This document shows, in pieces, positions 1 to 33,189 of a stretch of DNA of 64,000 bases; the first letter of the stretch is position 1, and every line of letters starts with the position of its first letter. The position numbers and the translations under genes are program-made. Below the pieces are notes generated by a model that made no database searches, had not been told where the DNA came from, and worked only from the letters and a program-made list of their open reading frames with translations. The stretch is from Myxococcales bacterium (GTDB lineage: Bacteria; Myxococcota; Myxococcia; Myxococcales; Anaeromyxobacteraceae). The stretch lies in NCBI GenBank assembly GCA_021806645.1, contig JAJZQX010000010.1:62001-126000 (forward strand), written 5' to 3'.

Positions 1-1727
1 TCGGCCAGCCGGACCTGTCCGGGCGGCACGCTCCAGGCCTGGGCCATGGCGTCCTGGATCCGCCGCTTCACGCCGGCGCAGGCGGCGATGGCGGCGTTGC
101 CGGCCATGAAGGTGATGCGAGACGAATAGGCCCCCAGGTCGACCGGGGTGAGGTCGGTGTCGGCGGTCACCACCCGGATCGAGTCGAGTGCCACGCCGAG
201 CTCCTCGGCCACGATGTAGGCCAGCACCGAATCGCAGCCCTGGCCGATGTCGCTCACCCCGGCGAAGACCGTGACCCGGCCGGAGCGGTCCACCTTGAGC
301 TGCACCGCCGACTGCGGCATCTCGTTGGGGTAGATGGGGTAGTTGGTCCCGGAGATGTAGGTGGAGCCGGCCACCCCGACGCCGCGGCCGAAGGGCAACT
401 GCCGGAACTTCTCCTTCCAGCCGCTGGCCCGCTCCACGCCGGCCAGGCACTCGAGGAAGCCGTTGGAGGTCACCCGGAACTCGTTGACGGTGCGGGTGTC
501 GGCGCCGAGGACGTTGCGCCGGCGCAGCTCGATGGGGTCGAGGGCGACGCGCTCGGCCAGCATGTCGAGGGCGCACTCGAAGGCGAAGCGGGGCTGGACC
601 GATCCGTGGCCACGCTTGGGGCCACAGGAGGGCTTGTTGGTGAAGACGCGCGTCGAGTCGAACTCGTAGGCGGGGAGCCGGTAGGGCGCGCCGAGGAGCT
701 GCCCCGAGTAGTAGGTGGTCACCAGGCCGAAGGAGGAATGGGCGCCGCCGTCGATCAGGATCCGCGCCTTGACCGCGGTGAGCATGCCGTCGCGCCTGGC
801 CCCGACCTGGTAGGTCATCAGCATGGGATGGCGGCCGCGGTGCGCGGCGAAGACCTCCTCACGCGTGTAGAGGATCTTCACGGGCCGGCCGGTGAGGCAG
901 GAGAGCTTGGCCACCGCGAACTCGAGGTCGAAGGGCTCGCTCTTGCCTCCGAAGCCGCCGCCGACCGCCGGCTGGATCACCCGGATGCGGTCAATGGGGA
1001 GCTCGAGGACGCGGCTCAGCTCGCGGTGGAGGTAGTGCGGCACCTGGGTGCTGGAGTGGACGGTGAGGATCCCGTCGGCGCCGAGGTCGCCCACCGCGCA
1101 GTGCGGTTCGATGGCGGCGTGGGTCGAGCCGGCGTGGAACCAGGTGTCCTCCACCACCACCTCGGCCCCGGCCAGCCCGCCCTCGACGTCGCCGAAGGTG
1201 AGGCGGACCTGCTTGGAGACGTTCCCCTTCGCGGAGAAGGTGTTCACCTGGTTCTCGGGGTGGGCCAGCGCGTCCTCCACGGTGAGGACCGCCGGCAGCA
1301 CCTGGTAGTCGATCTCGATGAGCGCGAGCGCCGCCTCGGCGGTCCGCTCGTCGTCGGCGGCCACCGCCGCCACCCCGTCGCCGACGTATAGGACCTTGTC
1401 GATGGCCAGCGGGTACTCGTCGCGGGTCCAGGGGATGATGCCGTAGGCGACCGGCAGGTCGCGCCCGGTGATGACGGCGTGGACGCCGGGGTGGGCCGCC
1501 GCGCGCCGGGTGTCGATGGAGCGGATGCGGGCGTGGGCATGGGGCGAGCGGAGGATCTTGCCGTGGAGGAGCCGCGCCGGCTGCAGGTCGTCGGTGAAGA
1601 TGGACTGGCCGGTGACCTTGCGCCGGCCGTCCACCTTCCTGTTGCGCTTGCCGATCACCGAGAAGGCGGCGCCCTCGCCGCTGCCAGGGCCAGGGCCGGC
1701 CGGCCCGACCGGACGCCGGCCGGTCAC
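1..1727 (-). CDS. hcrA: 4-hydroxybenzoyl-CoA reductase-like molybdopterin subunit (partial, C-terminus beyond window)
   Basis: This is the large, molybdenum-cofactor subunit of a xanthine-oxidase-family enzyme. It most likely removes the phenolic hydroxyl of 4-hydroxybenzoyl-CoA to give benzoyl-CoA. About 575 residues are visible from a GTG start that overlaps the stop of the Fe-S subunit gene. The N-terminal a/b hammerhead domain is followed by cofactor-domain motifs: GGGFGGK near residue 256 and GPKRGHGSVQPRFAFE further on, a block typical of HcrA/HbaC-type proteins. The family is certain. The substrate is inferred from the CoA ligase upstream and the benzoyl-CoA pathway nearby; another aryl-CoA or aldehyde substrate is possible. 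The FAD subunit (HcrB) is not in the window and may lie further left. Confidence 0.85.
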   Translation of the reverse strand, partial: MTGRRPVGPAGPGPGSGEGAAFSVIGKRNRKVDGRRKVTGQSIFTDDLQPARLLHGKILRSPHAHARIRSIDTRRAAAHPGVHAVITGRDLPVAYGIIPWTRDEYPLAIDKVLYVGDGVAAVAADDERTAEAALALIEIDYQVLPAVLTVEDALAHPENQVNTFSAKGNVSKQVRLTFGDVEGGLAGAEVVVEDTWFHAGSTHAAIEPHCAVGDLGADGILTVHSSTQVPHYLHRELSRVLELPIDRIRVIQPAVGGGFGGKSEPFDLEFAVAKLSCLTGRPVKILYTREEVFAAHRGRHPMLMTYQVGARRDGMLTAVKARILIDGGAHSSFGLVTTYYSGQLLGAPYRLPAYEFDSTRVFTNKPSCGPKRGHGSVQPRFAFECALDMLAERVALDPIELRRRNVLGADTRTVNEFRVTSNGFLECLAGVERASGWKEKFRQLPFGRGVGVAGSTYISGTNYPIYPNEMPQSAVQLKVDRSGRVTVFAGVSDIGQGCDSVLAYIVAEELGVALDSIRVVTADTDLTPVDLGAYSSRITFMAGNAAIAACAGVKRRIQDAMAQAWSVPPGQVRLA

Positions 1728-2227
1728 GGCTTGCCTCCACCCTTCGGGGCGGCGCGAGCCTGGTGGACCTCGCCGGCGGCCTTCACCACCGCGTCCAGGA
1801 TCTTGGTGTAGCCGGTGCAGCGGCAGAGGTTGCCGGACAGCGCCTCGCGGACGTCCTGGCGGCTCGGCTGGTCGTTCTCCTCTATGAGCGCGCAGGCGCT
1901 CATGAGCATCCCCGGCGTGCAGAAGCCGCACTGGGCGGCCCCCTGCGTGTCGAAGGCCTCCTGGAGCGGATGGAGCCGGCCTGCCTCGGCCAGCCCCTCG
2001 ACCGTGGTCACCCGACGGCCTTCGACGGAGCGAGCCAGGACCAGGCAGGCCAGGACGGCGCGGCCGTCGAGGAGCACGGTGCAGGCGCCGCAGTCGCCCT
2101 TGTCGCAGCCCTGCTTCGAGCCGGTCAGGCCGAGGTCCTGGCGGAGACACTCGAGGAGCGTGGCGCCGGGCTCGACCAACACCTCGACCGGGTCGCCGTT
2201 GACGACGAAGCGAACGCTCTCCTTCAC
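1724..2227 (-). CDS. hcrC: [2Fe-2S] small subunit of 4-hydroxybenzoyl-CoA reductase-like enzyme
   Basis: This 167-residue iron-sulfur subunit passes electrons to or from the molybdenum site of the neighbouring large subunit. The plant-type [2Fe-2S] cluster has cysteines at 41, 46, 49 and 61. The second, helical cluster has cysteines at 100, 103, 135 and 137 (CGFC and CRC motifs). The length is normal for HcrC/CoxS proteins. It starts with GTG and overlaps the upstream ligase gene and the downstream large-subunit gene by four bases each, so the three are translationally coupled. Family membership is certain; the aromatic substrate is inferred from the operon. Confidence 0.9.
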   Translation of the reverse strand: MKESVRFVVNGDPVEVLVEPGATLLECLRQDLGLTGSKQGCDKGDCGACTVLLDGRAVLACLVLARSVEGRRVTTVEGLAEAGRLHPLQEAFDTQGAAQCGFCTPGMLMSACALIEENDQPSRQDVREALSGNLCRCTGYTKILDAVVKAAGEVHQARAAPKGGGKP

Positions 2228-6734: not shown

Positions 6735-9014
6735 CTAGTGAGCCGCCGCCTCGCGAACCCCGCTGCCGTTGTTGGCGGCCCGCCGCTGCTCCACGAACTC
6801 GCGGAGCTGGGAGCGGATGTGGTCGACCGAGACCAGCCGGAGGTCGTGGGTGTCGGCCTCGATGACGATGGGGGTGACGCCGGTGTCGCGCCGGAGCCGG
6901 ATGTGCAGTCCGGAGCGCGCCGCGCTGTGGTCGGGGGCGGTCCGGGCGTCGTGGAAGATGGCGGCGTCCACGCCGTAGCGCGCGAACTCGCGGGCCAGGT
7001 ACTTGGCCTTGTGCTCGCGGGAGCGGTTCGGGTAGACGGAGGTGTAGGCGGCCGCCATGCTCTCGATGGGGTTCTCGCGCTGCAGCCCCTGGAGCGCGTA
7101 GGACTGCGAGTACCAGGAGCCGACCACCGCGATCCCCTCGTCGAGGAAGAGGCTGGCCAGCGGCCGCAGTGCGCACCAGATGGGCACCCCCTCCCAGAAG
7201 AAGCGGAATCGCTCGCCCGGCACGGCGGCGATCTTCCCGGCGATGCGGTACTTGAGCTCGGCCAGCAGGATCTCGTAGTAGCTGATGGCCTCCTCGGTCC
7301 CCCGCATCAGCAGCATGGGCGCCACGTGGATGATGGTGTCGAAGTAAGTGATGGGGCTGGGGGTGTGGCAGGCCAGATCGAGGATCTCGCCCCAGAGCTT
7401 GGCGGCGCGGGCCGAGCGGTCGACCACCTCGGCCAGCCGATCCTGGTCGAGGGTCCGCGCCGAGACCTTCTCGAGCCGGTCGACCAGCCGGAGCGTCTGC
7501 TGGACCGCGGCGTCGATCTCGATCTTCTCGACCTCGTTCAGGGCCGGCGGGGGGTGGAGGCCGAGCAGCGGGGCGCCGAGCCGGTTGCCGTAGTACTCGA
7601 ACCAGCGGGCCACGTAGGAGCCGATGTTGGTGTTGTAGAGCAGGACCGCCGGGGGAGGGACGCCGTCGAGCCCGTGGAGGCCGACCAGGGGCGACTCCCC
7701 GGCCAGCATGGCGCCCACGTCGCTGGCCATCTCGCTGGAGGCGAAGGGCGAGAAGCCGTCGGCCAGGGCCAGCCGGATGTACTTCCCGGTGAGCCGGCTG
7801 GCGCCGATGAGGGCGGCGTGGTTCTCGGGGAAGTAGGGGACGTAGCCGAGCGCCCGGGCGATCTCGACCGGGCCGTGGGTCGAGCACCAGGCCACGTTGC
7901 GGTCGCCGGCGGCCCGGGCCAGCTCCCGCCAGTAGCCGCTCAGGATCTCCTTGAGCTTCGGCGCGCTCTCCAGGGGCACCCGCCCCTGCGGCATCCCGGC
8001 GAAGGGAACCCGGTCCACCGGCCGTGAGGGCATCCTGGCCTGCGACTCCTTCACCCCGGCCAGCGTCACGGCGCCCCGCTCCTGGCGCCGCTGCTGCTCG
8101 CGCTCCCGTGAGTGGACCAGCTGGACGATGGCCCAGTTGAGCGGCGCCTTCATCCCCAGCCGCTCCGCCTCGGCGACGATGCCGCCGTTCATGGCGTCGA
8201 TCTCGGTGCGGAAGCCGCGCACCAGGTCCTGCCACATGGAGGGGCGGTTGCGCGCCAGGGCCTGCTGGGACCGGACGATGGGCCGGTAGGGATCCTCGGG
8301 ATCCTCGAGCGCGGTGCCCCGGGCCTTCATCACCTCGGCGATCTCCAGGCTGAGGCCGCGCATCAGCGCCTGCATCTCGTCGTCCTCGAGCAGCTCGCTG
8401 CAGCTCATCCCGGTCAGGGCCGAGATGGGGTTGACCACGGCGTTGTGGGCCAGCTTCTGCCAGACCACCGCGTCGACGCTCTCGACCACCTCGGTGGCCA
8501 TCCCGGCGCGGCGGAAGACCTCGCCGATGGCCCGGAGCTCGTCGGTGATCTTCCCGTCCACCGGCGCCATCTGGATGGGCTTGATGCCGGTCCGGTAGCG
8601 CATCCGGTTGGGGCCGGTGTGCTGGATGGAGTGGAAGGTGATCCCGGTGAGGATGCGGTCGCCCCCCACCACCGACCTGATCCGGTCGACGTTCCCGATG
8701 CCGTTCTGGGTGGAGAGGATCCAGGTCTTCTCGCCGATGACCGGGAGCCCGGCGCGGATGGCGCTCTCGGTCTGGTAGCTCTTCACCGCCACGAAGAGCA
8801 GGTCGGCGGGCGGCTGCCCCTCCAGCGTGGTGACCACCTTCAGCTGGACGTGCTGCTCGCCCATGTCCGATTCCGAGAGGAAGAGCCCCTGCTCGGCGAG
8901 GAGCTTGGCGCGGGCCACGTTGACCTCTAGGAAGGTGACGTCCTCTCCCGACGCGCCCAGGCGTGCTCCCATGAGCCCGCCGAGCGCCCCCGCACCGAGA
9001 ATCACGATCCGCAT
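6735..9014 (-). CDS. Fusion: ketopantoate reductase-like domain + 2-hydroxyacyl-CoA dehydratase-like subunit (759 aa)
   Basis: One uninterrupted frame encodes two complete proteins. Residues 1-305 are a PanE/ApbA-type NADP-dependent 2-oxoacid reductase. They include the GAGALGG Rossmann motif, and WQKLAHNAVVNPI with Lys187 and Asn191 at the catalytic positions. Glu271 is in TEIDAMNGG. After a charged linker (306-340), residues 341-759 match the dehydratase subunit at 4650. Two of that paralogue's three cluster cysteines are replaced: Ser426 and Ala693, with only Cys377 kept. An internal ATG at 8033, with an AAGGAG twelve bases upstream, could also start a separate 432-residue subunit. The start at 9014 begins the reductase domain exactly. 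It is the first gene of the left operon. Confidence 0.85.
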   Translation of the reverse strand: MRIVILGAGALGGLMGARLGASGEDVTFLEVNVARAKLLAEQGLFLSESDMGEQHVQLKVVTTLEGQPPADLLFVAVKSYQTESAIRAGLPVIGEKTWILSTQNGIGNVDRIRSVVGGDRILTGITFHSIQHTGPNRMRYRTGIKPIQMAPVDGKITDELRAIGEVFRRAGMATEVVESVDAVVWQKLAHNAVVNPISALTGMSCSELLEDDEMQALMRGLSLEIAEVMKARGTALEDPEDPYRPIVRSQQALARNRPSMWQDLVRGFRTEIDAMNGGIVAEAERLGMKAPLNWAIVQLVHSREREQQRRQERGAVTLAGVKESQARMPSRPVDRVPFAGMPQGRVPLESAPKLKEILSGYWRELARAAGDRNVAWCSTHGPVEIARALGYVPYFPENHAALIGASRLTGKYIRLALADGFSPFASSEMASDVGAMLAGESPLVGLHGLDGVPPPAVLLYNTNIGSYVARWFEYYGNRLGAPLLGLHPPPALNEVEKIEIDAAVQQTLRLVDRLEKVSARTLDQDRLAEVVDRSARAAKLWGEILDLACHTPSPITYFDTIIHVAPMLLMRGTEEAISYYEILLAELKYRIAGKIAAVPGERFRFFWEGVPIWCALRPLASLFLDEGIAVVGSWYSQSYALQGLQRENPIESMAAAYTSVYPNRSREHKAKYLAREFARYGVDAAIFHDARTAPDHSAARSGLHIRLRRDTGVTPIVIEADTHDLRLVSVDHIRSQLREFVEQRRAANNGSGVREAAAH

Positions 9015-9084
9015 GCCCGACACCCTCGTCCCGCGTCTTCCGACCTGGAGAGCCTGGAGCGACTGTGCTGTCCTGTTCAATGAC

Positions 9085-9115
9085 ATTCTGGTACGCTTTT
9101 GCGTATATTGTCCAG
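9085..9115. promoter_or_regulatory. 31-bp conserved promoter/operator element, copy A
   Basis: This element lies in the 168-bp divergent region between the fusion gene (start 9014) and the dehydrogenase/hydratase gene (start 9183). It reads ATTCTGGTACGCTTTT, six variable bases, then ATTGTCCAG. The copy at 33220 is identical outside the six variable bases. Read towards the minus-strand operon it contains TGGACA, about 18 bp, then CAGAAT, which could be a -35/-10 pair. It also has an imperfect inverted repeat, CTGGTAC against GTCCAG, and so could be an operator. For the plus-strand gene, ATGACA (9080) and TATATT (9104) form a possible promoter. Confidence 0.6.
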
Positions 9116-9182
9116 CGCCATCCCCGGAGCGCCCGCCCGGCGCGGCGCATCCAGCGCGCTTCCGCGGCGTCAAGGAGAGTTC

Positions 9183-15011: not shown

Positions 15012-16070
15012 ATGGCGCATCGCTGGGTGATGAAGCAGCCGGGTGAGCCACTGGTCATGGAGCCCATGGCGCTCGATGCGCCGCCGCCGGGCGGCGTCTG
15101 GATCGAGGTGGCCGGCTGCGGAGTCTGCCACACCGACCTGGGCTTCTTCCACGACGGGGTCCGGACCAACCACGCGCTCCCGCTCGCCCTCGGGCACGAG
15201 ATCAGCGGCCGCGTGGTCGCCGCCGGGCCAGGCGCCGAGTCGTGGCTCGGGCGCGCCGTCATCGTCCCGGCCGTCATCCCATGCGGCGAGTGCGACGCCT
15301 GCCGCCGCGGCAAGGGGACCATCTGCCCCACCCAGCAGATGCCCGGCAACGACATCCACGGCGGCTTCGCGACCCACGTCGCGGTCCCCGCCCGCGGTCT
15401 CTGCCCCGTCGACGAGGCGCGCCTGGCCCGGACCGGGCTGACCCTGGCCGACCTCTCGGTGGTGGCCGACGCGGTGACCACCCCGTACCAGGCGGTGGTC
15501 CAGGCGGGCGTGACCAGGGGAGCGCTGGCCATCGTGATCGGCGTGGGAGGGGTCGGCTCCTATGCGGCGCAGATCGCCAGGGCGCTCGGGGCCACGGTGG
15601 CGGCGGTGGATGTGGACCAGGCCAAGCTCGACCTCCTCGCCGCGCAGGGGGTGGCCACCGGCTTCAACCCCCGCACGCTCGACCAGAAGGCGCTCAAGAA
15701 GGCCATCGCCGAGTACGCCAGGAAGAGCGGGGCCACGGCGCGGGAGTGGATCATCTTCGAGTGCTCCGGCACGGCCGCCGGCCAGCTCACCGCCTGGGGC
15801 CTGCTGGTCCACGGCGCCACGCTGGCGGTGGTCGGGTTCACGCTCGACAAGGTCGAGGTGCGGCTCTCCAACCTGATGGCCTTCCACGCCCGGGCCCTGG
15901 GGAACTGGGGCTGCGCGCCGGAGCTCTACCCGGCCGCCCTCGACCTGGTGCTCGACGGGAAGGTCCAGCTGGCCCCCTTCGTCGAGCGCCGACCGCTGGC
16001 CGAGGTGAACGCCGTGTTCGCCGAGGCCCACCAGAAGAAGCTCTCCCGCCGCGCCATCCTCGTCCCCTAG
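15012..16070 (+). CDS. had: 6-hydroxycyclohex-1-ene-1-carbonyl-CoA dehydrogenase
   Basis: This zinc-type alcohol dehydrogenase of 352 residues oxidises 6-hydroxycyclohex-1-ene-1-carbonyl-CoA to the 6-oxo compound with NAD. Zinc ligands are visible in [10 protein letters not shown] and GHE. Structural-zinc cysteines are in [16 protein letters not shown]. The Rossmann motif is [11 protein letters not shown] choose ATG at 15012, where the MDR domain begins and GAGGGAGG lies upstream; a start at 14925 would add an unlikely leader. It is the first gene of the operon and is followed 19 bp later by oah, the next pathway step. That neighbour makes the assignment specific. Confidence 0.93.
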
Positions 16071-16089
16071 AGCCTGGAGGAGATTCGAC

Positions 16090-17235
16090 ATGTCGAAAAG
16101 GACGGAAGCCGTGACTGGCGCGACGGCGCCAGCTTCGGCCAAGGACCACCAGCTGGCGCCGTTCCCGGGCGCCGTGGGCGTCCGCTTCGAGAAGCGCCCG
16201 GCGCGCCGCCCCGACGGGACCGAGGTCCCGGGGCTCTTCAACGCCTGGATCGTCCTCGACAACCAGGCCCAGTTCAACTCCTACACCACCGACATGGTGA
16301 AGGCGGTCATCCTCGCCTTCGGCGCGGCCTCCAGCGCCCGCGACGTGGTGTCGGTGGTGTTCACCGGCGCCGGGGACAAGGCCTTCTGCACCGGGGGGAA
16401 CACCAAGGAGTACGCCGAGTACTACGCCGGCAATCCGCAGGAGTACCGGCAGTACATGCGGCTCTTCAACGACATGGTGAGCGGCATCCTCGGCTGCGAC
16501 AAGCCGGTGATCTGCCGCGTCAACGGCATGCGCATCGGCGGCGGCCAGGAGATCGGCATGGCCTGCGACTTCACCATCGCCCAGGACCTGGCCCGCTTCG
16601 GGCAGGCCGGTCCCAAGCACGGCTCCGCCCCCATCGGCGGCGCCACCGACTTCCTCCCCGTCCTCCTCGGCGCCGAGCGGGCCATGGAGACGGGCCTGCT
16701 CTGCGAGCCGTGGTCGGCCCACCGCGCCTACCGCGAGGGGATGATCACCGACCTGGTCCCGGCCCTGAAGGTGGACGGCAAGTTCGTCGCCAACCCGTTG
16801 GTCTGGACCGACCGCCTTCTCGACGAGTACGGCCGCTTCCTCCACGGCGAGCCCAAGACCGGGACGGCGCTGGCCGAGGGCAAGGAGCTGCTGAGGCGAG
16901 GGACCGTGGACCTCGGCCGGCTCGACGAGCGGGTCGAGCAGCTCTGCGCCAAGCTCCTCCTCACCTTCCCCGACTGCACCACCAAGACCATCGAGGAGCT
17001 GCGCAAGCCCAAGCTGCGGGCCTGGACCGCCAACAAGGAGAACTCGCGCGCCTGGCTGGCCCTCAACATGATGACCGAAGGCCGCACCGGCTTCCGGGCC
17101 TTCAACGAGGGGACCAAGGACGACCGGGAGGCCGACTTCGTGGCCCTCCGGCAGGCCCTGGCCCGCGCCACCCCCTGGAGCCCGGAGCTGGTCGAGAGCC
17201 TGCTCCCCGCCGCCAAGGCGGACGGAGGCCGGTGA
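16090..17235 (+). CDS. oah: 6-oxocyclohex-1-ene-1-carbonyl-CoA hydrolase (ring-opening)
   Basis: This is the ring-cleaving crotonase of anaerobic aromatic degradation, called Oah in Thauera and BamA in obligate anaerobes. It adds water to 6-oxocyclohex-1-ene-1-carbonyl-CoA and opens the ring to 3-hydroxypimelyl-CoA. The 381-residue length fits the family. Typical blocks are DNQAQFNSYTTDMVKAVILA, AFCTGGNTKEYAEYYAGNP and MRIGGGQEIGMACDF. It starts with ATG at 16090 behind GGAGG and shares bases with dch through a TGATG junction. The family is used as a marker of this metabolism. Confidence 0.96.
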   Translation: MSKRTEAVTGATAPASAKDHQLAPFPGAVGVRFEKRPARRPDGTEVPGLFNAWIVLDNQAQFNSYTTDMVKAVILAFGAASSARDVVSVVFTGAGDKAFCTGGNTKEYAEYYAGNPQEYRQYMRLFNDMVSGILGCDKPVICRVNGMRIGGGQEIGMACDFTIAQDLARFGQAGPKHGSAPIGGATDFLPVLLGAERAMETGLLCEPWSAHRAYREGMITDLVPALKVDGKFVANPLVWTDRLLDEYGRFLHGEPKTGTALAEGKELLRRGTVDLGRLDERVEQLCAKLLLTFPDCTTKTIEELRKPKLRAWTANKENSRAWLALNMMTEGRTGFRAFNEGTKDDREADFVALRQALARATPWSPELVESLLPAAKADGGR

Positions 17236-18017
17236 TGGCCGCCGCCGCTCCGGTGCGCGCCTGGCGCGAACGCGACGGCCGGCTCCTCCGGATCCGGCTC
17301 GACCGGCCCAAGGCCAACGTCCTCGACGCGGCCATGGTCGCGGCCCTCGACGCCGCCTTCGCCGAGGCCGTGGCCGCGGGGAAGGGGCCCGCGCTGCGTG
17401 GGATCCTCCTCGACGCCGAGGGTCCGCACTTCAGCTTCGGCGCCAGCGTCGAGGAACACCTCCCGGCGACCTGCGCCGGCATGCTCCGCGGCTTCCACGC
17501 GCTCCTGCTCCGCATGCTCGAGCTTCCGGTCCCCATCCTGGTGGCGGTGAAGGGGCAGTGCCTCGGGGGCGGGCTGGAGCTGGCCTGCGCTGGACACCTG
17601 GTCTTCGCCGCCCCGGACGCCAAGCTGGGCCAGCCGGAGATCATCCTCGGGGTCTTCGCCCCGGCCGCCTCCTGCCTGCTCCCGGAGCGGATCGGCCCGG
17701 GCGCGGCCGACGACCTGCTCCTCTCCGGCCGCTCCATCGACGGCGTCGAGGCGCACCGGCTGGGGCTGGCCTGCGCAGTGGCCGCCGATCCCGAGGCCGC
17801 CGCGCTGGCCTGGTTCGACGCCCACCTGGCCGGCCGCTCCGCCGTCTCGCTCGGCTTCGCCGCCCGCGCCGCCCGCCTCGGACTCGCCGAGCGGGTCCGC
17901 CCAAGGCTGGCGGCCCTGGAGGCCATCTACCTCGACGACCTCATGAAGCGCCGCGACCCGGTCGAGGGGCTCACCGCCTTCCTGGAGAAGCGTCCGGCCC
18001 GCTGGGAGGACCGCTGA
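17235..18017 (+). CDS. dch: Cyclohexa-1,5-diene-1-carbonyl-CoA hydratase
   Basis: This crotonase-fold protein of 260 residues hydrates cyclohexa-1,5-diene-1-carbonyl-CoA, the product of benzoyl-CoA reductase, to the 6-hydroxy compound. Diagnostic stretches are LDRPKANVLDAAM, SFGASVEEHLP and GQCLGGGLELA. The start codon ATG at 17235 overlaps the oah stop. The following bcrC begins 2 bp after its stop. The order had-oah-dch-bcr matches the chemistry run in reverse and resembles the gene content of Thauera and Rhodopseudomonas clusters. Confidence 0.92.
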   Translation: MAAAAPVRAWRERDGRLLRIRLDRPKANVLDAAMVAALDAAFAEAVAAGKGPALRGILLDAEGPHFSFGASVEEHLPATCAGMLRGFHALLLRMLELPVPILVAVKGQCLGGGLELACAGHLVFAAPDAKLGQPEIILGVFAPAASCLLPERIGPGAADDLLLSGRSIDGVEAHRLGLACAVAADPEAAALAWFDAHLAGRSAVSLGFAARAARLGLAERVRPRLAALEAIYLDDLMKRRDPVEGLTAFLEKRPARWEDR

Positions 18018-18019
18018 CC

Positions 18020-19195
18020 ATGGCGACCATCACCACCGCCGCCCTGGTGGCGCGATGCCAGGCGCTCTTCGACGACATCTCCTTTGGCGCGGCGCGCCAG
18101 TGGAAGGCGGCCGCTCCGGGGCGGAAGGTCGTCGCCTACATGCCCATCTACGTGCCCCGCGAGATCATCCACGCGGCCGGGATGCTGCCGCTCGGGATCC
18201 TCGGGGCCGGCGAGAGCCTCGAGGTCATCCATGGCGACGCCTACTACCAGAGCTACATCTGCCGCATCCCACGCTCCACCCTCGACCTCGGGATCACCGG
18301 CCGCCTCGACTTCGTGGACGGGTTCCTCTTCCCCTCCATCTGCGACGTCATCCGCAACCTCTCGGGCATCTGGAAGATCCTCTTCCCCGAGGTCTACGTC
18401 CGCTACTTCGACGTGCCGCAGAACTTCGACCCGGAGGTGGGCGGGACGTTCTACCGGCACGAGCTCCAGGAGCTCCGTGAGGGCCTGGCGCGACTGGCCG
18501 GGAGCCCCATCAGCGACGACGCGCTGCGGGCCTCCTTTGCCCTCTACAACCGGAACCGGCGGCTGGTCCGCGAGCTCTACGCCTTCCGGGCCGAGGCCCC
18601 CTGGCGGGTGCCGGCCTCGGAGCTGTACCTGGTGCAGCGGGCCGGGATGGTGCTCCCGGTCGAGGAGCACAACCAGCTGCTGGCCGACTACCTGGCCGCG
18701 GCCCGGGCCGAGGAGCGGCCGCGACGCGACAACTGCCGCGTCGTGCTCAACGGCGTCTTCTGCGAGCAGCCTCCACTCAGCCTCATCAAGGCCATCGAGA
18801 TGTCGGGCTGTTACGTGGTCGACGACGACTTCATGCTGGTGAACCGGTGGCTGCTCGAGGACCTCCCCGTGAGCGGTGACCCCATCGCCGCCCTGGCGAC
18901 CGCCTTCCTCGGCGGCTCGACCGAGACCGGGGCCAAGTACCAGCCGCGCCGGGAGCTCAAGGGGCGCTACATCCTCGACGCGGTTCGGGCCAGCGCCGCC
19001 GAGGGCGTCATCTTCGCCGCCCCCAGCTTCTGCGATCCGGCGCTGCTGGAGCGGCCCATGCTCGAGGCGGTCCTGGATCGCGTCGACGTCCCGCACATCG
19101 GCTTCAAGTACGCGGAGAACTCCGCCCAGATGCAGCCGGTGCGGGAGCAGGCCGGCACCTTCGCCGACTCGATCAAGCTCTGGAGCGCGCCATGA
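18020..19195 (+). CDS. bcrC: Benzoyl-CoA reductase subunit C
   Basis: This is one of the two substrate-binding subunits of class I, ATP-dependent benzoyl-CoA reductase (391 residues, HgdB/BcrBC family). With BcrB it carries the active site, where the ring is reduced by two electrons to the cyclic diene. Characteristic blocks are [20 protein letters not shown], the cysteine in [25 protein letters not shown], and a late cysteine in [11 protein letters not shown]. The next gene, bcrB, starts four bases before its stop. The bcrC-B-A-D order is that of Thauera aromatica and of badDEFG. Confidence 0.94.
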
Positions 19196-20511
19196 CCGCG
19201 AGTGCCCCGTCCCATCGCTCGCCGGTCCCGGTCCGGGAGGTCGTGAAGGAAGCGTCGATGGTGAAGCAGAAGGAGATGATCGCGCGCAACTACGATCTCC
19301 TCACCAGCACCGCCGAGCATGGCCGCAAGGTCGCCTCCACCTTCGTCCCGGGCAACCTGAACGAGCTGATCATGTGCTTCGACATGCTCAACAACCTCCC
19401 CGAGATCAACGCCATCCAGAACGGGATGCGCAAGCTCTCCGGCGACTACATCGCCGAGGCGGAGAAGCGCGGCCACTCCGAGGACGTCTGCACCTACGTG
19501 AAGGCCGACCTGGGGATGATCGCCAAGGGCAACGTCTCGCCCAATGGCAAGCCGCTGCCGCGCCCCGACCTGCTGCTGCTCTCCTACACCGGCTGCTTCA
19601 CCTTCATGAAGTGGTTCGAGCTCCTCCGCGAGGAGTACAAGTGCCCCACCGTCATGCTCCACGTGCCCTACCAGGGGGACGGGGAGACGACCAAGAACAT
19701 GCGGGACTACATCGTGAAGCAGCTGCGCCAGGAGGTCATCCCCGCCCTGGAGCGGGTCTCCGGCGTGAAGTTCGACATCGACCGGCTGCGTGGGTACCTG
19801 CGGGAGTCGGCGCGCGCCGAGGACGACCTGGTCTGGGTCCTGGAGAGCGCCAAGAACAAGCCGGCGCCCATCGACGCCTACTTCGGCGGCGTCTACTACA
19901 TCGGCCCCATCTTCACGGCCTTCCGCGGCACGCCCGACGCGACCGAATACTACCGGCTGCTCCGGTCGGAGATCACCGAGCGGATCCGGCTGGGGCTGGG
20001 GCCCATCACGCCGGAAGGCGACATGAAGAGCCAGAAGTACCGGCTGGTGGTGGAGGGGCCGCCCAACTGGACCAGCTTCCGCGAGTTCTGGAAGATGTTC
20101 TACGACGACGGGGCGGTGGTGGTGGCCTCGAGCTACACCAAGGTCGGCGGCACCTACGACCTCGGCTTCCGCCACGACCCCGACCACCCCCTCGAGTCGC
20201 TGGCCGACTACTGCATGGGGGTCTACACCAACCGCAACCTGCCTCAGCGGATCGACCTGCTCGAGAAGTACATGGACGAGTACCAGGCCGACGGGCTCCT
20301 CATCAACTCCATCAAGAGCTGCAACAGCTTCTCGGCCGGCCAGCTCATGATCATGCGCGAGGTCGAGAAGCGCACCGGGAAGCCGGCCGCCTTCATCGAG
20401 ACCGACCTGGTCGATCCCCGCTACTTCTCCGCCGCCAACGTGAAGAACCGGCTGGAGAGCTACTTCCAGATGATCGACCAGAAGCGCGGCAGCGCCCCGT
20501 CCGCGGCCTGA
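19192..20511 (+). CDS. bcrB: Benzoyl-CoA reductase subunit B
   Basis: This is the second substrate-binding subunit of class I benzoyl-CoA reductase (439 residues). Family features include the cysteine in [29 protein letters not shown] and the late [14 protein letters not shown], which provide the expected cluster ligands. The first 22 residues are a weakly structured leader and Met23 could be an alternative start. The ATG at 19192 overlaps the bcrC stop in the ATGA arrangement used through this operon. It acts with BcrC and receives electrons from the BcrA-BcrD activase. Confidence 0.94.
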
Positions 20512-20531
20512 CCGGAGCGGGGAGGACGTCC

Positions 20532-21863
20532 ATGAAGTGCTACATCGGCATCGACCTCGGCTCGACCACCACCAAGTCGGTGATCGTCGACGAGCAGGCC
20601 AAGGTGCTGGGGCGCGGCATCACCAACTCCCGCTCCAACTACGACACCGCCGCGGCGGTCTCCAAGCAGGAGGCCTTGGTGGCCGCCCGCTTCACGCTCT
20701 TCCGGCGCGCCCTCTCCGCGACCCCGGCCCTGGCGGGCCGCGTCGACGGGCTCCTCGTCGACCTCGAGCGCCACTTCCGCCTGGTGCAGTTCCGGGCCCA
20801 GCTCGAGGATCTCGAGGAGACCTGCCTGCGCCACAGCGGAGGCCTGCGCTTCGCCGGGCAGGAGCGGGCCCTGGCCGAGGCGCTGGGCGCGGTCTTCCGC
20901 GAACTCCGCGAGGAGGCGATCGCGCTCTTCGCGCCCGGGGCGCGCCGCCGCTCCGACTTCTTCCGGGACCTGGCCGGATCAGGCTTCATGACGGCCGCGG
21001 AGCCGGTCTGCAAGGCGTCGGGCCTCTCCTTCGACCTCATGCTCAACGTCTACGACAAGTCGATCATCGAGGTGGAGAACCGGAAGGGCGAGGCCGGGAT
21101 GGACGGGAAGTTCCTCGAGGCGCTCGACAGCGTGCTCCGCACTCGCGCCGCCGGCGGGGCGGCGGCGGGACCGCCGCTGGTCGCCGACGAGGTGGTCCGG
21201 CCGGTGCGGGCCGCGCTGCAGATCCCGCTCGAGGAGGTCTACGTGGTCGGGACAGGTTACGGGCGGGTCCGCCTCCCCTTCCCCAAGGAGCACATCCGCT
21301 CCGAGATCCTCTGCCACGGGCTCGGCGCCCACCTCATGCACGAGGGGACGCGAACCGTCCTCGACATCGGCGGCCAGGACACCAAGGCGATCCAGGTGGA
21401 CGAGAACGGCATCGTCGAGAACTTCCAGATGAACGACCGCTGCGCGGCCGGCACCGGGCGCTACCTGGGCTACGTCGCCGACGAGATGCAGATGGGGCTC
21501 CACGAACTCGGGCCCATGGCGCTCCAGGCCACCAAGACGCTGCGCATCAACTCGACCTGCACGGTCTTCGCCGGCGCCGAGCTCCGCGACCGGCTGGCGC
21601 TGGGCGACAAGCGCGAGGACATCCTGGCCGGCCTGCACCGCGCCATCATCCTGCGCGCCATGTCGATCATCTCCCGCTCCGGCGGGATCCGGGACCAGTT
21701 CACCTTCACCGGCGGCGTCGCCAAGAACGAGGCGGCGGTCAGGGAGCTCCGCAATCTCGTGAAGGAGAACTACGGCGACGTCACCATCAACATCAACCCG
21801 GACTCGATCTACACCGGCGCGCTCGGGGCGGCGGCATTCGCCCGGCGCGGCGCGGCGGCCTGA
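20532..21863 (+). CDS. bcrA: Benzoyl-CoA reductase subunit A (activase, large)
   Basis: This is the larger ATP-binding, electron-activating subunit (443 residues). The ASKHA loops are [10 protein letters not shown] at the N-terminus and DIGGQDTK around residue 280. Cluster cysteines lie in DRCAAGTG and NSTCTVF. The insertion of about 180 residues between the two loops distinguishes BcrA/BadF from the short BcrD and HgdC proteins. It follows bcrB by 20 bp with GGGGAGGA upstream. Hydrolysis of ATP by BcrA and BcrD drives electrons from ferredoxin to BcrB-BcrC. Confidence 0.95.
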
Positions 21864-21880
21864 CCGGACCAGGAGGCGTG

Positions 21881-22723
21881 ATGACCATCACCGCGGGAAT
21901 CGACGTCGGCACCGGGTGCGTCAAGGTCGCGCTCTTCGAGACCGGCGGCGGTGCGCCGCGCTGGCTGGGGCGGCGCGTCGAGCGGATCCGCCAGCGCAAT
22001 CCCTACGCGCTCGCCGGCGACGCCTTCGACGCCCTCCTGGAGGAGGCCGGGCTCCGCCGCGGCGATGTCGCCTACATCGCCACCACCGGCGACGGCGAGA
22101 GCATATCCTTCGCCACCGGCCACTTCTACTCGATGACCACGCACGCCCGCGGGGCCATCCACCTCGACCCCTCGACCCGGCTGGTCCTCGACGTCGGGGC
22201 GCTCCACGGTCGGGCCATCCGCACCGACGCCCGCGGCAAGGTGCTCTCCTACAAGATGACCAGCCAGTGCGCCTCGGGCTCCGGCCAGTTCCTCGAGAAC
22301 ATCGCGCGCTACCTCGGCATCGCCCAGGACGAGATCGGCACCCTCTCGCTCCAGGGGACCGCCCCGGAGAAGGTCTCCTCCATCTGCGCGGTGCTGGCCG
22401 AGACCGACGTCATCAACATGGTCTCGCGCGGCATCTCGGCCGCCAACATCTTGAAGGGCATCCACGTCTCCATGGCGCAGCGGCTGGCCGCGCTGGTCAG
22501 GGGGATCGGCGTGCTGGAGGGGACGGTCCTGGTCACCGGCGGCCTCGGGCTCGACCGCGGGCTGGTCGCCGCCATCCAGGAGGCGAGCGCCGAGGCCCAG
22601 CTGCCGGTCCAGGTGAGGAGCCACCCCGACGCCATCTACGCCGGGGCCATCGGCGCGGCGCTGTGGGGTGCCTTCCGTCACGAGAAGCTCTCCGCGCGGC
22701 CCCCCGGCGCGCTCGCCTCGTAG
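21881..22723 (+). CDS. bcrD: Benzoyl-CoA reductase subunit D (activase, small)
   Basis: This is the smaller activase subunit of class I benzoyl-CoA reductase (280 residues). It begins GIDVGTGCVK, has the second loop DVGALHGR and holds cluster cysteines in SQCASGSG and SSICAVL. AGGAGG sits four bases before the ATG at 21881. With BcrA it should form the heterodimer that binds ATP and one [4Fe-4S] cluster. No ferredoxin gene follows, unlike the clusters of Thauera and Rhodopseudomonas, so the electron donor is encoded elsewhere or is one of several cellular ferredoxins. Confidence 0.94.
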   Translation: MTITAGIDVGTGCVKVALFETGGGAPRWLGRRVERIRQRNPYALAGDAFDALLEEAGLRRGDVAYIATTGDGESISFATGHFYSMTTHARGAIHLDPSTRLVLDVGALHGRAIRTDARGKVLSYKMTSQCASGSGQFLENIARYLGIAQDEIGTLSLQGTAPEKVSSICAVLAETDVINMVSRGISAANILKGIHVSMAQRLAALVRGIGVLEGTVLVTGGLGLDRGLVAAIQEASAEAQLPVQVRSHPDAIYAGAIGAALWGAFRHEKLSARPPGALAS

Positions 22724-29667: not shown

Positions 29668-29682
29668 GTGCCCTCCTCCCGC

Positions 29683-31005
29683 CTAGATCTTCCGCTTGTC
29701 GATGACCCGCTTGGCCTTGCCCTCGCTCCGGGCCAGGGTCCGAGGCTCGACCAGGGTCACCGTGGCCCGGATCCCCAGCACCCGCTCGAGCTCCTGGCCG
29801 AGGTTGCGGTGGAGCGTCTCCAAGGCCCGCATCTTGTCCGAAAAGACCTCGGCGGTCACCTCGACCTGGACCTCCATGTCGTCGAGCCCCTTCTCCCTGG
29901 TCAGGACGATGGCGTAGTGGGGCAGCGTCCCATCCACCCTGAGGAGCGCCGTCTCCACCTGGGAGGGGAAGACGTTGACGCCGCGGATGATGAACATGTC
30001 GTCGGAGCGCCGCTCGATGCGCTTGATGCGCCGGAGCGTGCGGCCGCAGGCGCACGGCTCGGCGATGAGCGTGGTCACGTCGCGGGTCCGGTAGCGGATC
30101 ATGGGCATGGCCCGCTTCGAGAGGGTGGTGAGCACCAGCTCGCCCTCGCTCCCGTCGGGGAGGACCGCGCCGCTGGCCGGATCGATGATCTCCGGGAAGA
30201 AGTGGTCCTCGTAGAGGTGGAGCCCGACCTGGTGGACGCACTCGGCGCCCACGCCCGGGCCGATGATCTCGGAGAGCCCGTAGATGTCGTAGCCGCGGAC
30301 GCCGGTGTCATCCTGGATGCGCTGGCGCATGGCCTCGCTCCACGGCTCGGCGCCGAAGACGCCCACGCGCATGCGGGAGAAGTCGATCTTCTCCTCCACG
30401 GCGCGCTCGACCAGGTGCAGGAAGTAGGAGGGCGTGCAGCAGATGACGGTGGCGCCGAAGTCCTGCATCACCATGATCTGCCGCTCGGTGTTGCCGCCGC
30501 TGATGGGGATGACCGTGGCGCCGAGCGCCTCGGCGCCGTAGTGGGCGCCCAGCCCGCCGGTGAAGAGGCCGTAGCCGTAGGCGTTCTGGATGATGTCGCC
30601 GCGGTGGACGCCGAAGGAGGCGAAGGCCCGGACCATGACCTCCTTCCAGACCTCGATGTCGGCCTGGGTGTAGGCGACCACGATGGGCCGGCCGGTGGTC
30701 CCCGAGGAGGCGTGGAGCCGCACCACCTCCTCCATGGGGCAGGCCAGGAGGCCGAAGGGGTAGGTGTCGCGCAGGTCGGCCTTGACCGTGAAGGGCAGCC
30801 GGGCCAGGTCGGCCGGGGTCTGGACGTCCTTGGGCGTGAGGCCACGCTCGTCCATCCGGCTCCGGAAGTGCTCGACCCGCGCGTAGGCGAGGGCCACCGT
30901 GGAGCGGAGGCGCTGGAGCTGGACCTCCTCGAGCCTGGCGCGCGGCAGGTAGTCGGCGGCGCTGAGGGGGTGAAAGCCGTTGGCCGGATCGTTCCAGGTG
31001 CTCAC
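29683..31005 (-). CDS. paaK: Phenylacetate-CoA ligase
   Basis: This AMP-forming ligase of 440 residues makes phenylacetyl-CoA (or a substituted arylacetyl-CoA) from the acid, ATP and CoA. It has the intact PaaK loop ASSGTTGRPIVVAYT, YGYGLFTGGLG, GLSEIIGPG, the CACGRT motif and MFIIRGVNVFPSQVE. The start is GTG at 31005, where GGGAGG precedes by six bases; the longer reading frame to 31092 lacks family similarity. It lies downstream of iorB. In combination, arylpyruvate would be oxidised by IorAB to an arylacetyl-CoA, while free arylacetates are activated by this ligase. Confidence 0.92.
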   Translation of the reverse strand: MSTWNDPANGFHPLSAADYLPRARLEEVQLQRLRSTVALAYARVEHFRSRMDERGLTPKDVQTPADLARLPFTVKADLRDTYPFGLLACPMEEVVRLHASSGTTGRPIVVAYTQADIEVWKEVMVRAFASFGVHRGDIIQNAYGYGLFTGGLGAHYGAEALGATVIPISGGNTERQIMVMQDFGATVICCTPSYFLHLVERAVEEKIDFSRMRVGVFGAEPWSEAMRQRIQDDTGVRGYDIYGLSEIIGPGVGAECVHQVGLHLYEDHFFPEIIDPASGAVLPDGSEGELVLTTLSKRAMPMIRYRTRDVTTLIAEPCACGRTLRRIKRIERRSDDMFIIRGVNVFPSQVETALLRVDGTLPHYAIVLTREKGLDDMEVQVEVTAEVFSDKMRALETLHRNLGQELERVLGIRATVTLVEPRTLARSEGKAKRVIDKRKI

Positions 31006-31042
31006 CGTCGACCTCCCGGGGCGGGGGCGCCCCTCGTCGAGT

Positions 31043-31555
31043 TCACTGTCGCTTGCCGAGTGCCGCCGCGCCGGACGTGGCGGCGCGGGCACGTCCCTGC
31101 TGGAAGGCCTGCTCGTTCGCGGCGTGGAGGCGCTCCGCCAGCGCGGCCCGAACCGCGTCGAGGAAGATCCGCTCCGGGATGTCGAGGTAGGCGGAGAGCG
31201 CGCCCAGCAGGGCCACGTTGAGGCTGCGCTTGTTGATGAGTTCCCCCTCGGGGACGAAGTCGGGTGCGAGGAGCACGCCGCCGGGGCGCAGCAGCGGGCG
31301 GGTGACCTCGACCTCGGAGGGGGCCAGCACCACCAGGAAGTCGGCCTCGCCCCGGGGGATCATGGGCGAGAGCACCTTCACGCCGAAGCGGATGTCCGAG
31401 GTGACCGAGCCGCCGCGCTGGCTCATGCCGTGGACCTCGGCCTTCTTGACGTCGAAACCGGCGCGAACGGCGGCGTCGGCGAGGATGTCGGAGGCCTTGA
31501 TGACCCCCTGGCCTCCCAGCCCGGCCAGGATCACGTTGGTGACGGTGTGGCTCAT
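31043..31555 (-). CDS. iorB: Indolepyruvate:ferredoxin oxidoreductase beta subunit
   Basis: This 170-residue subunit corresponds to the gamma domain of 2-oxoacid:ferredoxin oxidoreductases. The opening NVILAGLGGQGVI and EVHGMSQRGGSV are diagnostic. The ATG at 31555 overlaps the iorA stop by four bases, which decides the start; the longer frame adds eight residues with no similarity. With IorA it converts arylpyruvates (indolepyruvate, phenylpyruvate) and CoA to arylacetyl-CoA, CO2 and reduced ferredoxin. Confidence 0.94.
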   Translation of the reverse strand: MSHTVTNVILAGLGGQGVIKASDILADAAVRAGFDVKKAEVHGMSQRGGSVTSDIRFGVKVLSPMIPRGEADFLVVLAPSEVEVTRPLLRPGGVLLAPDFVPEGELINKRSLNVALLGALSAYLDIPERIFLDAVRAALAERLHAANEQAFQQGRARAATSGAAALGKRQ

Positions 31556-33189
31556 GCGTCCTCCGGCACCGCGCCGCACGCCGCGCCGGCGCAGGCCTGC
31601 GCCGCACGGGTCGCTTCGGCCGCCTTCTCCCAGCCGCGGATGTCGGCCGCCGCCAGCACGCAGGGGCGCCGGGCCACGATGAGGGAGAGGAGGGGAGCGG
31701 CCAGCTTCTCCGCCAGCAGCGTCGCGAACCCGGCCGGGTTCGCGAAGGGATCGATGATGGTGGTGTCGATTCCCATGGCGCGGGCCAGGCCCTCGATGGA
31801 GATCTTGCCGGTGGCCTCGTGCTCGAGGGTGCGGCCGGTCCCGGGGTGCTCCTGCTGCCCGGTCATGGCGGTGATGCCGTTGTCGAGGACGATGATCACG
31901 TGGCCCAGCTTGGGTGGGTTGTAGACCATCTCCATGAGCCCGGAGACGCCGGAGTGGATGAAGGTGGAGTCCCCGATGATGGAGACCACCCGCCTGGCCT
32001 GATCGGCGGGGAGGACGTGGCGCAACCCGAGGCCGACGCCGATGGAGGCGCCCATGGCCACGCAGGTGTCCAGGGCCCGGTAGGGCTCCATGACGCCCAG
32101 CGTGTAACAGCCGATGTCGCCGGCCACGATGCAGTCGAGCTTGCGCAGCGCCGCGAAGACCGGGTGGTAGGGACAGGCGGCGCAGAGCTCTGGCGGCTTC
32201 CCCTTGGGGAGCGGCGGCTCGGTGGAGAGATCCCGGGCCAGGATGCGGCGGACCCGGCCCACGTCGAGCTCGCCGAAGCGGAACATCTCCGGCTTCGACT
32301 CGACGGCGATGCCGGCGGCGCGCAGGGCGTCGGCGATGACGGGGTCGCCCTCCTCGATGACCTGGCAGCGCTTCACGCCGGCGGCGAAGGTGCGGAGCCG
32401 CTCGATGGGGAGCGGGTGGACCAGGCCGATCTTGAAGAAGCTGGCGCCCGGGGAGGCCTCGGCGGCGTGCAGGGCGCAGACGCCGTCGGTGACGATCCCC
32501 AGGTCCCTGCTGCCCTCGGTGACGGTGTGGAGGTCGCTGGTCTCGCCGAAGGCGGCCATGTCGGCCAGCTTGGCCCGCAGCTTGCGGTGGGCTGGGCGGG
32601 CGAAGGCCGGGACCATGACCCGGCCCGGGATGTCGCGCACGAAGCTGGGGGCGCGCGGTGTCATCGGCGTGGCCCGCGAGGTGACCAGGGCCTTGGAGTG
32701 GCAGACCCGGGTGGTCATCCGGAACAGGACCGGAAGCGACCAGCGCTCGGAGAGCTCGACCGCCCGGAAGAAGTAGTCGTAGGCTTCTTGCGGATCGGCG
32801 GGAGAGAGCATGGGCAGGCCGGCGGCGATGGCGTAGCGCCGGTTGTCCTGCTCGTTCTGCGAGGAGGCCATGCCGGGGTCGTCGGCCGTGACCACCACCA
32901 GGGCGCCGGTGACGCCGGTATAGGCCGCGGTGAAGAGTGGATCCGCGGCGACGTTGAGGCCGACGTGCTTCATGGTCACCAGGGCCCTACCACCGCCGAA
33001 GGCGGCTCCCAGCCCCACCTCGAGCGCCACCTTCTCGTTGGGCGCCCACTGGGCGCTGCCGCCGAGGGCGCCGAAGGCCTCCAGGATCTCGGTGGAGGGG
33101 GTGCCGGGGTACCCGGTCCCGAGGGCGATGCCCGTGTCTCGCGCGGCGAGGGCGACGGCTTCGTCGCCCGACAGCAGCCTCTTCTCCAT
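31552..33189 (-). CDS. iorA: Indolepyruvate:ferredoxin oxidoreductase alpha subunit lacking the C-terminal ferredoxin domain
   Basis: This thiamine-diphosphate-dependent subunit has 545 residues. The N-terminal domain carries GYPGTPSTEI and TADDPGMASSQNEQDNR. The TPP-binding region is visible in GDIGCYTLGV and GDSTFIHSGV...NGITAMTGQQ. Usual IorA proteins continue after the RRPC motif with about 70-80 residues holding eight cysteines for two [4Fe-4S] clusters. Here the protein ends 39 residues after RRPC, with only a CAGAAC remnant. The start ATG at 33189 lies about 30 bp from the conserved 31-bp element. It heads the operon that ends at 24423. An external ferredoxin must take electrons directly, or another subunit substitutes. 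Confidence 0.92.
   Translation of the reverse strand: MEKRLLSGDEAVALAARDTGIALGTGYPGTPSTEILEAFGALGGSAQWAPNEKVALEVGLGAAFGGGRALVTMKHVGLNVAADPLFTAAYTGVTGALVVVTADDPGMASSQNEQDNRRYAIAAGLPMLSPADPQEAYDYFFRAVELSERWSLPVLFRMTTRVCHSKALVTSRATPMTPRAPSFVRDIPGRVMVPAFARPAHRKLRAKLADMAAFGETSDLHTVTEGSRDLGIVTDGVCALHAAEASPGASFFKIGLVHPLPIERLRTFAAGVKRCQVIEEGDPVIADALRAAGIAVESKPEMFRFGELDVGRVRRILARDLSTEPPLPKGKPPELCAACPYHPVFAALRKLDCIVAGDIGCYTLGVMEPYRALDTCVAMGASIGVGLGLRHVLPADQARRVVSIIGDSTFIHSGVSGLMEMVYNPPKLGHVIIVLDNGITAMTGQQEHPGTGRTLEHEATGKISIEGLARAMGIDTTIIDPFANPAGFATLLAEKLAAPLLSLIVARRPCVLAAADIRGWEKAAEATRAAQACAGAACGAVPEDA

Follow-up and report, generated by a model that had tools for sequence, protein, structure and literature searches.

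What does a protein do that joins a ketopantoate reductase (KPR, PanE/ApbA) to a subunit of the 2-hydroxyacyl-CoA dehydratase / benzoyl-CoA reductase (HAD/BCR) family? Such a gene lies in a 64,000-nucleotide stretch of a Myxococcales bacterium (GCA_021806645.1, contig JAJZQX010000010.1, positions 62,001 to 126,000 of the forward strand), the whole of which was analysed and is called the window here. A preliminary description of the DNA had read the gene as a single frame coding for both enzymes, in an architecture not described before, and both statements stand. Pfam recognises ApbA (residues 3-152, 119 bits), ApbA_C (181-303, 101 bits) and HGD-D (380-743, 147 bits), all above the gathering cut-offs. 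The literature searched has no paper that pairs ketopantoate reductase with 2-hydroxyglutaryl-CoA dehydratase, nor one that brings it together with both 2-hydroxyacyl-CoA dehydratase and benzoyl-CoA reductase. The KPR-HGD fusion is a new variant of the HAD/BCR family and a widespread companion of the benzoyl-CoA pathway.

The fusion is not confined to this bacterium. Whole-genome and contig searches among metagenome-assembled or other public genome contigs recovered 33 distinct fused open reading frames without a stop, 49-87% identical, some of them cut by contig ends. Their records, from at least five phyla, are labelled Myxococcota/Deltaproteobacteria, Acidobacteria, Krumholzibacteriota, Eisenbacteria and Gemmatimonadota. 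No stop or frameshift was found in the fusion frame at 8030-8060, the region that the preliminary description had singled out for resequencing, and 33 distinct unbroken fusions rule out a sequencing or frameshift artefact. A conserved methionine at the beginning of the HGD domain (G340-M341) was considered as an internal start for a separate HGD product, but in the window it has no clear ribosome-binding site before it. The AlphaFold model of the fusion has a pTM of 0.57, and the relative placement of its domains is uncertain.

The KPR half scores 243 bits against TIGR00745 (cut-off 141) and carries, besides its ApbA and ApbA_C domains, the GxGxxG motif and the catalytic Lys, Asn and Glu of the family. 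The motif is invariant in the fusions, as are Lys187, Asn191 and Glu271, which had been noticed at the outset, and also Lys78 and Asn104; Ser259 is nearly so. Lys78, Asn104, Lys187, Asn191, Glu271 and Ser259 are the equivalents of Lys72, Asn98, Lys176, Asn180, Glu256 and Ser244 of Escherichia coli PanE. PanE and the KPR-family D-mandelate dehydrogenases (3wfi, 5x20, 8wl1) have the fold, the GxGxxG motif and the Lys/Asn/Glu/Ser/Asn active site in common with the fusion, at only 23-29% identity. Unlike PanE, the fusion has an HGD-D domain attached and differs at the cofactor site: Glu30, at the end of β2, occupies the position of the NADPH-binding Arg of the family, a position that is Glu in 29 and Asp in one of 31 fusions. 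In E. coli PanE this residue is Arg31, the site for the 2′-phosphate of NADPH. KPR-family D-mandelate dehydrogenases have Asp there, and some were crystallised with NADH (3wfj, 5x20). These residues suggest that the KPR domain is, most likely, an active reductase of 2-oxoacids, perhaps of aromatic ones, with a preference for NAD(H). With Glu in place of Arg, NADH is more likely than NADPH to be the preferred cofactor, and an assay with NADPH, as first proposed, could therefore miss the activity. The same genome encodes a second, separate KPR homologue (C6:28305-29204).

The HGD half has the length of the complete HgdB/BcrB-type subunit it was first taken for, but not its catalytic completeness. 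In BzdO the catalytic [4Fe-4S] cluster is held by Cys95, Cys128 and Cys380, and HadB is built likewise (PMC11971306). At these positions the fused half has S427 (codon 7734-7736), G465 (7620-7622) and A693 (6936-6938). The first and second cluster cysteines are replaced in all 33 fused halves, with S/T and G/A/S there; the third is replaced by A/T/S/N in 26 of the 31 that reach it and is Cys in the other five. Because the cluster ligands are missing, the fused half cannot serve alone as the catalytic subunit of a dehydratase or reductase, and catalysis must sit in the separate HGD-D subunit of the operon, HGD2, whose three cluster cysteines (C95, C133 and C361) are invariant in 19 of 19 sequences. 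The closest fold to HGD2 is HadB of 2-hydroxyisocaproyl-CoA dehydratase (TM 0.86-0.87), with MbdO/BzdO behind, and its substrate-pocket motif TSVGPxEL resembles TSVFPQEL of HadB, unlike that of BcrB/MbdO. HadB is also the best fold match of the fused half (TM 0.93 over HadB). His131 failed as a discriminator between dehydratases and reductases, the residue being, in the alignment made here, His in BzdO, Phe in BcrB and MbdO, and Val in HGD2 and HadB.

In the tree the fused HGD domains form one clade (support 100/100) with a long stem, sister to HGD2 (100/99). This topology therefore indicates a single origin, through duplication of an HGD2-like B-type subunit; the fused subunit is of the HadB/BcrB (B) type rather than the HgdB/HadC (C) type that its first name implied. 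The usual heterodimer of one B-type and one C-type subunit is not encoded. Two B-type subunits are present, no C-type (HadC/BzdN, double-cubane) subunit was found in the fusion operon, and the C-type subunits of the same genome belong to bcr and to a locus on contig C5. The latter (L090, 7075-10291) holds a canonical C-type plus B-type pair followed by an activase; the pair is kept in many Myxococcota, is not linked to the fusion and lies closest to HadB in the tree. HGD2 is likely the catalytic subunit and the fused half its cluster-less partner, a dimer composition that we infer. Two ATP-dependent activases, ACT1 and ACT2, accompany them, both with the bridging-cluster cysteines (Cys126 and Cys165 of ACT1, invariant in 32 of 32; Cys130 and Cys169 of ACT2, invariant in 24 of 24).

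The loss of the cluster ligands would be expected if the fusion were one of convenience, both halves being inert or structural and the KPR fold a dimerisation or regulatory module. We consider this highly improbable: all catalytic and nucleotide-binding residues of KPR are kept in fusions from different phyla that have diverged this far, and the standalone relatives of KPR in clusters of the same kind retain them too.

A further possibility, raised in another form by the preliminary description, is a second aryl-CoA reductase, in which HGD2, the fused half and ACT1/ACT2 would reduce a substituted ring (e.g. 3-hydroxy- or methyl-benzoyl-CoA) and KPR would act on the ring hydroxyl or oxo group of the product. 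Two different activases, as BcrA and BcrD in class I benzoyl-CoA reductase, and the close linkage to Dch-like enoyl-CoA hydratase (ECH), Had and Oah-like hydrolase genes would suit such an enzyme. However, the fused half (112 bits) and HGD2 (141 bits) fall far under the BcrB/BzdO equivalog cut-off of 486.6, both group with HadB and other B-types away from BcrB (91/86, long branches), the double-cubane subunit is missing from the operon, and KPR, an enzyme of 2-oxoacids, retains the residues that bind the carboxylate. Moreover, most of the genomes already own a genuine enzyme. BcrB exceeds its cut-off in 29 of the 38 genomes that have the fusion or its KPR, and two genomes without BcrB (G205 and G222) have BamB (1068 and 814 bits to 4z3w). 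As a benzoyl-CoA reductase of class I or II is present in most fusion genomes, the fusion was rejected as the general benzoyl-CoA reductase of these organisms, with a few genomes (G199, G212 and others) not settled in the Bcr/BamB survey. The alternative of an aryl-CoA reductase is weakened thereby, and we regard it as fairly unlikely.

In the window, the genes of an anaerobic benzoyl-CoA pathway include a complete class I reductase, to which the fusion system is an addition. The association extends to related genomes: among 193 relatives, BcrB is present in seven of seven fusion genomes against 26 of 193 overall. The chance of finding it in all seven is about 4e-7 by hand calculation, six of the seven belonging to one family; within that family BcrB occurs in six of six fusion genomes against 7 of 24.

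The distances between the minus-strand genes (6709/6735, 5927/5936 and 3852/3868, with overlaps at 4650/4653, 2224/2227 and 1724/1727) suggest that the fusion, ACT1, HGD2, ACT2, an acyl-CoA ligase and the HcrC-, HcrA- and HcrB-like subunits of a 4-hydroxybenzoyl-CoA-reductase-like enzyme form one operon (Table 1). The HcrA-like subunit reaches 855 bits against TIGR03194 (cut-off 995). The HcrB-like subunit, beyond the window edge, reaches 251 bits against TIGR03195 (cut-off 405) and has a Cys-rich insertion, the [4Fe-4S] signature of 4-hydroxybenzoyl-CoA reductase. On the other side a 3-hydroxyacyl-CoA dehydrogenase/enoyl-CoA hydratase (HAD-ECH) gene is divergently transcribed. An element GGACAAT-(about 14)-GTACCAGAAT in the intergenic region is kept in three relatives (L035, L036 and L039) and is possibly a shared operator or promoter. 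The palindrome TACGC-N4-GCGTA at 9092, upstream of the fusion, is not kept in relatives and was dismissed.

Table 1. Position and identification of the fusion, its parts and its neighbours in the window
Feature	Position	Strand	Evidence or remark
KPR-HGD fusion gene	6735..9014	minus	ATG at 9014, stop ends at 6735, 759 aa, single frame
KPR (PanE/ApbA) half, residues 1-310	8085..9014	minus	Pfam, residue alignment
Inter-domain linker, residues 311-335	8010..8084	minus	AlphaFold model, low-confidence stretch 317-328
HGD-D half, residues 336-759, B-type, cluster ligands lost	6738..8009	minus	Pfam, alignment, tree
ACT1, BcrAD/BadFG-type ATP-dependent activase, 257 aa	5936..6709	minus	Pfam, profile match
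HGD2, separate HGD-D subunit, 425 aa	4650..5927	minus	Pfam, alignment, structure search
ACT2, second activase, 261 aa	3868..4653	minus	Pfam, profile match
AMP-forming acyl-CoA ligase, 542 aa	2224..3852	minus	Pfam, profile match
HcrC-like [2Fe-2S] subunit, 4-hydroxybenzoyl-CoA-reductase-like enzyme	1724..2227	minus	NCBIfam profile search
HcrA-like molybdenum subunit of 788 aa, its gene running past the window edge	1..1727	minus	TIGR03194
Divergent intergenic region, fusion / HAD-ECH gene	9015..9182		conserved element GGACAAT...GTACCAGA
3-Hydroxyacyl-CoA dehydrogenase / enoyl-CoA hydratase fusion, 654 aa	9183..11147	plus	Pfam, profile match
Thiolase, 430 aa	11159..12451	plus	Pfam, profile match
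Had, Oah, Dch: ring hydration and ring cleavage, benzoyl-CoA pathway	15012..18017	plus	above NCBIfam cut-offs
BcrC, BcrB, BcrA, BcrD: class I benzoyl-CoA reductase	18020..22723	plus	BcrC, BcrB and BcrA exceed NCBIfam cut-offs; BcrD from its place and length
PaaK-like phenylacetate-CoA ligase, IorB, IorA (arylpyruvate:ferredoxin oxidoreductase)	29683..33189	minus	

Which parts recur elsewhere? In Gemmatimonadota one contiguous set holds BcrCBAD, XDH-type subunits, TetR, a thiolase, a BadI/Oah-like hydrolase, SDR, ECH, the fusion, ACT1, HGD2, ACT2, a ligase and Had. Krumholzibacteriota-type loci have the order SDR, thiolase, OB-fold/DUF35, ECH, fusion, ACT1, Had; those long enough to show it (L046 and L047) carry HGD2, ACT2 and an ADP-forming ligase a few kb off. 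HGD2-ACT2 pairs are usually adjoined by a CoA ligase, of three unrelated kinds. Genes met repeatedly around the fusion are those for SDR, ECH, a thiolase, in some loci together with its OB-fold/DUF35 partner, and an enzyme of the XDH family that is most similar to 4-hydroxybenzoyl-CoA reductase. In some loci (L047, 2392-6107, and similar) this last enzyme has its [2Fe-2S] domain fused to the molybdenum subunit (946 aa), and its FAD subunit, with 292 aa, is shorter than HcrB; the electron path may differ. Gemmatimonadota loci such as L058, L080 and L061 have Bcr and Had and no canonical Oah, with a BadI/Oah-like hydrolase in the fusion operon. Among the genomes examined, none outside the Anaeromyxobacter group has a Dch above the cut-off.

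The model that best accounts for these genes, and that on balance we think probable, is a phenylalanine and tyrosine route from arylpyruvate through aryllactate and its CoA ester to arylacrylyl-CoA, which is β-oxidised to (4-hydroxy)benzoyl-CoA. The fusion would belong, as one subunit, to an ATP-activated 2-hydroxyacyl-CoA dehydratase system through which aromatic 2-oxoacids enter the anaerobic benzoyl-CoA pathway. With NADH, the KPR domain would reduce the arylpyruvate derived from Phe (phenylpyruvate) or from Tyr (4-hydroxyphenylpyruvate) to the corresponding (R)-aryllactate, from which the CoA ligase of the operon would make aryllactyl-CoA. ACT1 and ACT2 would hydrolyse ATP and pass an electron to the [4Fe-4S] cluster of HGD2, where water would be eliminated from the substrate by way of a ketyl radical, leaving cinnamoyl- or p-coumaroyl-CoA. 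The HGD half of the fusion, derived from an HGD2-like duplicate, would take the place of the C-type partner, complete the dimer and tether the oxoacid reductase. Enoyl-CoA hydratase, 3-hydroxyacyl-CoA dehydrogenase and thiolase would then lead through the 3-hydroxy- and 3-oxo-arylpropionyl-CoA to acetyl-CoA and (4-hydroxy)benzoyl-CoA, the ring being finished by the 4-hydroxybenzoyl-CoA reductase-like enzyme with Bcr/Bam, Dch, Had and Oah. The NADH spent on the oxoacid would be recovered by the 3-hydroxyacyl-CoA dehydrogenase; overall, the carbonyl would therefore move from C2 to C3 in a redox-neutral manner.

The substrates of this route, and the order and direction of its steps, are inferred from gene context. 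Of the 2-oxoacid to enoyl-CoA route outlined in the preliminary description, the general course best fits that context; what changes is that catalysis is placed in HGD2 and that the cofactor is likely NADH. The route from arylpyruvate to (4-hydroxy)benzoyl-CoA is the one found that employs all recurrent parts. IorAB and PaaK, enzymes of arylpyruvate and arylacetate, lie 20 kb from the fusion and support aromatic substrates. A paper of 2026 proposes for a benzene degrader that phenylpyruvate is converted to cinnamoyl-CoA and this to benzoyl-CoA, and leaves the dehydratase unassigned (PMC13416013). A mandelate-type substrate for HGD2 was rejected on established chemistry, as such a compound has no β-hydrogen.

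Dehydration could also serve a 2-hydroxyglutaryl-CoA system, working in either direction: KPR would convert 2-oxoglutarate to 2-hydroxyglutarate, the ligase would make the CoA ester and HGD2 would give glutaconyl-CoA, joining the tricarboxylic acid cycle to the glutaryl-CoA end of benzoate breakdown. This is the classic chemistry of the dehydratase family; some genomes have a reversible ADP-forming ligase beside HGD2-ACT2, and a glutaryl-CoA dehydrogenase-like gene (13659-14843) is near the operon. We nevertheless find it very unlikely, since the recurrent SDR, thiolase/DUF35, ECH and 4-hydroxybenzoyl-CoA-reductase-like genes would be left unexplained.

Several observations limit the arylpyruvate route or weigh against it. 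The placement of HGD2 and the fused half with dehydratases rather than reductases has only moderate support in the tree (91/86), where HadB is a long branch. The low identity of the KPR half to the characterised relatives compared is another. Since a ligase would have to act between reductase and dehydratase, it is less evident that the fusion channels its product directly. In a single lineage (L091) the HAD-ECH gene and the thiolase sit in the bcr operon, and because of this placement their counterparts in the window may serve 3-hydroxypimelyl-CoA rather than cinnamoyl-CoA. Three genomes with a 57%-identical standalone KPR show neither the fused HGD nor ACT1; these two are therefore not essential to the route. 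Finally, KPR lies directly between the Dch-like ECH and Had in several genomes, and in one beside a BamB-like gene, positions that could each reflect a role in the ring pathway.

The last point is the core of the remaining explanation, that KPR is a dehydrogenase of the central ring-cleavage pathway, for an oxidation of the 3-hydroxyacyl-CoA or cyclic-alcohol type, and that the fused half only docks it to HGD2 and the activase. Standalone KPR genes between a Dch-like ECH and Had (L012, L013, L014 and L069), and a KPR beside Oah, Had, ECH and a BamB-like gene (L111), speak for it. Those steps, however, already have enzymes, namely the HAD-ECH fusions and Had (exactly one above the cut-off in 28 of 30 genomes, often inside the fusion operon), and HGD2 would be left without a substrate. 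We judge it unlikely.

The standalone genes also bear on how the fusion arose. In three genomes (G158/G227, G179 and G170) a standalone KPR, 57-58% identical, occupies the same place in the order ECH-KPR-Had, where fusion genomes have ECH-[KPR:HGD′]-ACT1-Had. The genuine standalone genes are L012/L069, L013 and L014; contig ends truncate four other apparently KPR-only loci (L068, L070, L071 and L072), which give no evidence of splitting. The simplest history would be that a duplicated HGD′-ACT1 pair landed behind KPR and then merged with it. Standalone KPR genes in such clusters indicate, therefore, that KPR is tied to the benzoyl-CoA pathway independently of the fusion. Four other Myxococcota genomes (L106, L109, L111 and L112) encode divergent KPR-family proteins, 22-25% identical, confirmed by Pfam and with catalytic residues retained. 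They adjoin Had/Oah/ECH, Bcr, a BamB-like gene or HGD2-ACT2; in L111 the KPR gene lies directly between the Dch-like ECH and the BamB-like gene. We know of no described role in the benzoyl-CoA pathway for such proteins.

Between 24 and 33 kb the window encodes a LIV-type ABC transporter, two PaaK-like ligases and IorAB; IorAB, a PaaK-like ligase and the LIV transporter (29242-33189) make up a second, arylacetyl-CoA-forming exit for arylpyruvates. An Rrf2-family regulator (13019-13462) lies near the operons, and iron-sulphur-linked control of the region is possible.

The closest known systems are the (R)-2-hydroxyisocaproyl-CoA dehydratase HadBC and HadI with LdhA of Clostridioides difficile and the phenyllactyl-CoA dehydratase FldABC and FldI with FldH of Clostridium sporogenes. 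Their logic, from 2-oxoacid to (R)-2-hydroxyacid, CoA ester and enoyl-CoA with an ATP-dependent activase, is common to the fusion system, and HGD2 is like HadB in its three cluster cysteines and its fold. The fusion system differs in that its reductase has the KPR fold and is fused, instead of being of the D-lactate dehydrogenase type; that a CoA ligase replaces the CoA-transferase, with no class III enzyme of the FldA kind; that it has two B-type subunits, one of them cluster-less, no C-type subunit and two activases; and that its product is predicted to enter benzoyl-CoA oxidation, not Stickland reduction. Class I benzoyl-CoA reductases (BcrCBAD, BzdNOPQ, MbdONQP) resemble it in the HGD and activase families, the two different activases and the pathway neighbourhood. 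Unlike them, it has a fused half without a cluster, no double-cubane C-type subunit and scores far below the cut-offs, and the genuine BcrCBAD is separate from it, 9 kb away.

Some of the most demanding radical reactions known are catalysed by the HAD/BCR family. Its evolution has been described as a stepwise loss of cluster parts that creates new functions, and cluster-ligand mutants made in the laboratory were reported to be unstable (PMC11971306). The fusion, in which one subunit lacks the entire cluster site and carries an attached 2-oxoacid reductase of the NAD(P)H type, would be a separation of function that arose in nature. Tentatively, and as a possibility rather than a probability, we propose an undescribed anaerobic route from Phe and Tyr to benzoyl-CoA, shared by several phyla, in which the carbonyl would move from C2 to C3 without net redox change and a radical dehydratase, with a cluster-less subunit carrying the oxoacid reductase, would hold both reactions in one complex. 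Anaerobic benzene degraders have been postulated to possess a phenyllactyl-CoA dehydratase that is still missing (PMC13416013), and the fusion system is a candidate for it. Aromatic amino acids may also be degraded mainly by the proposed route in Gemmatimonadota, Krumholzibacteriota and Myxococcota.

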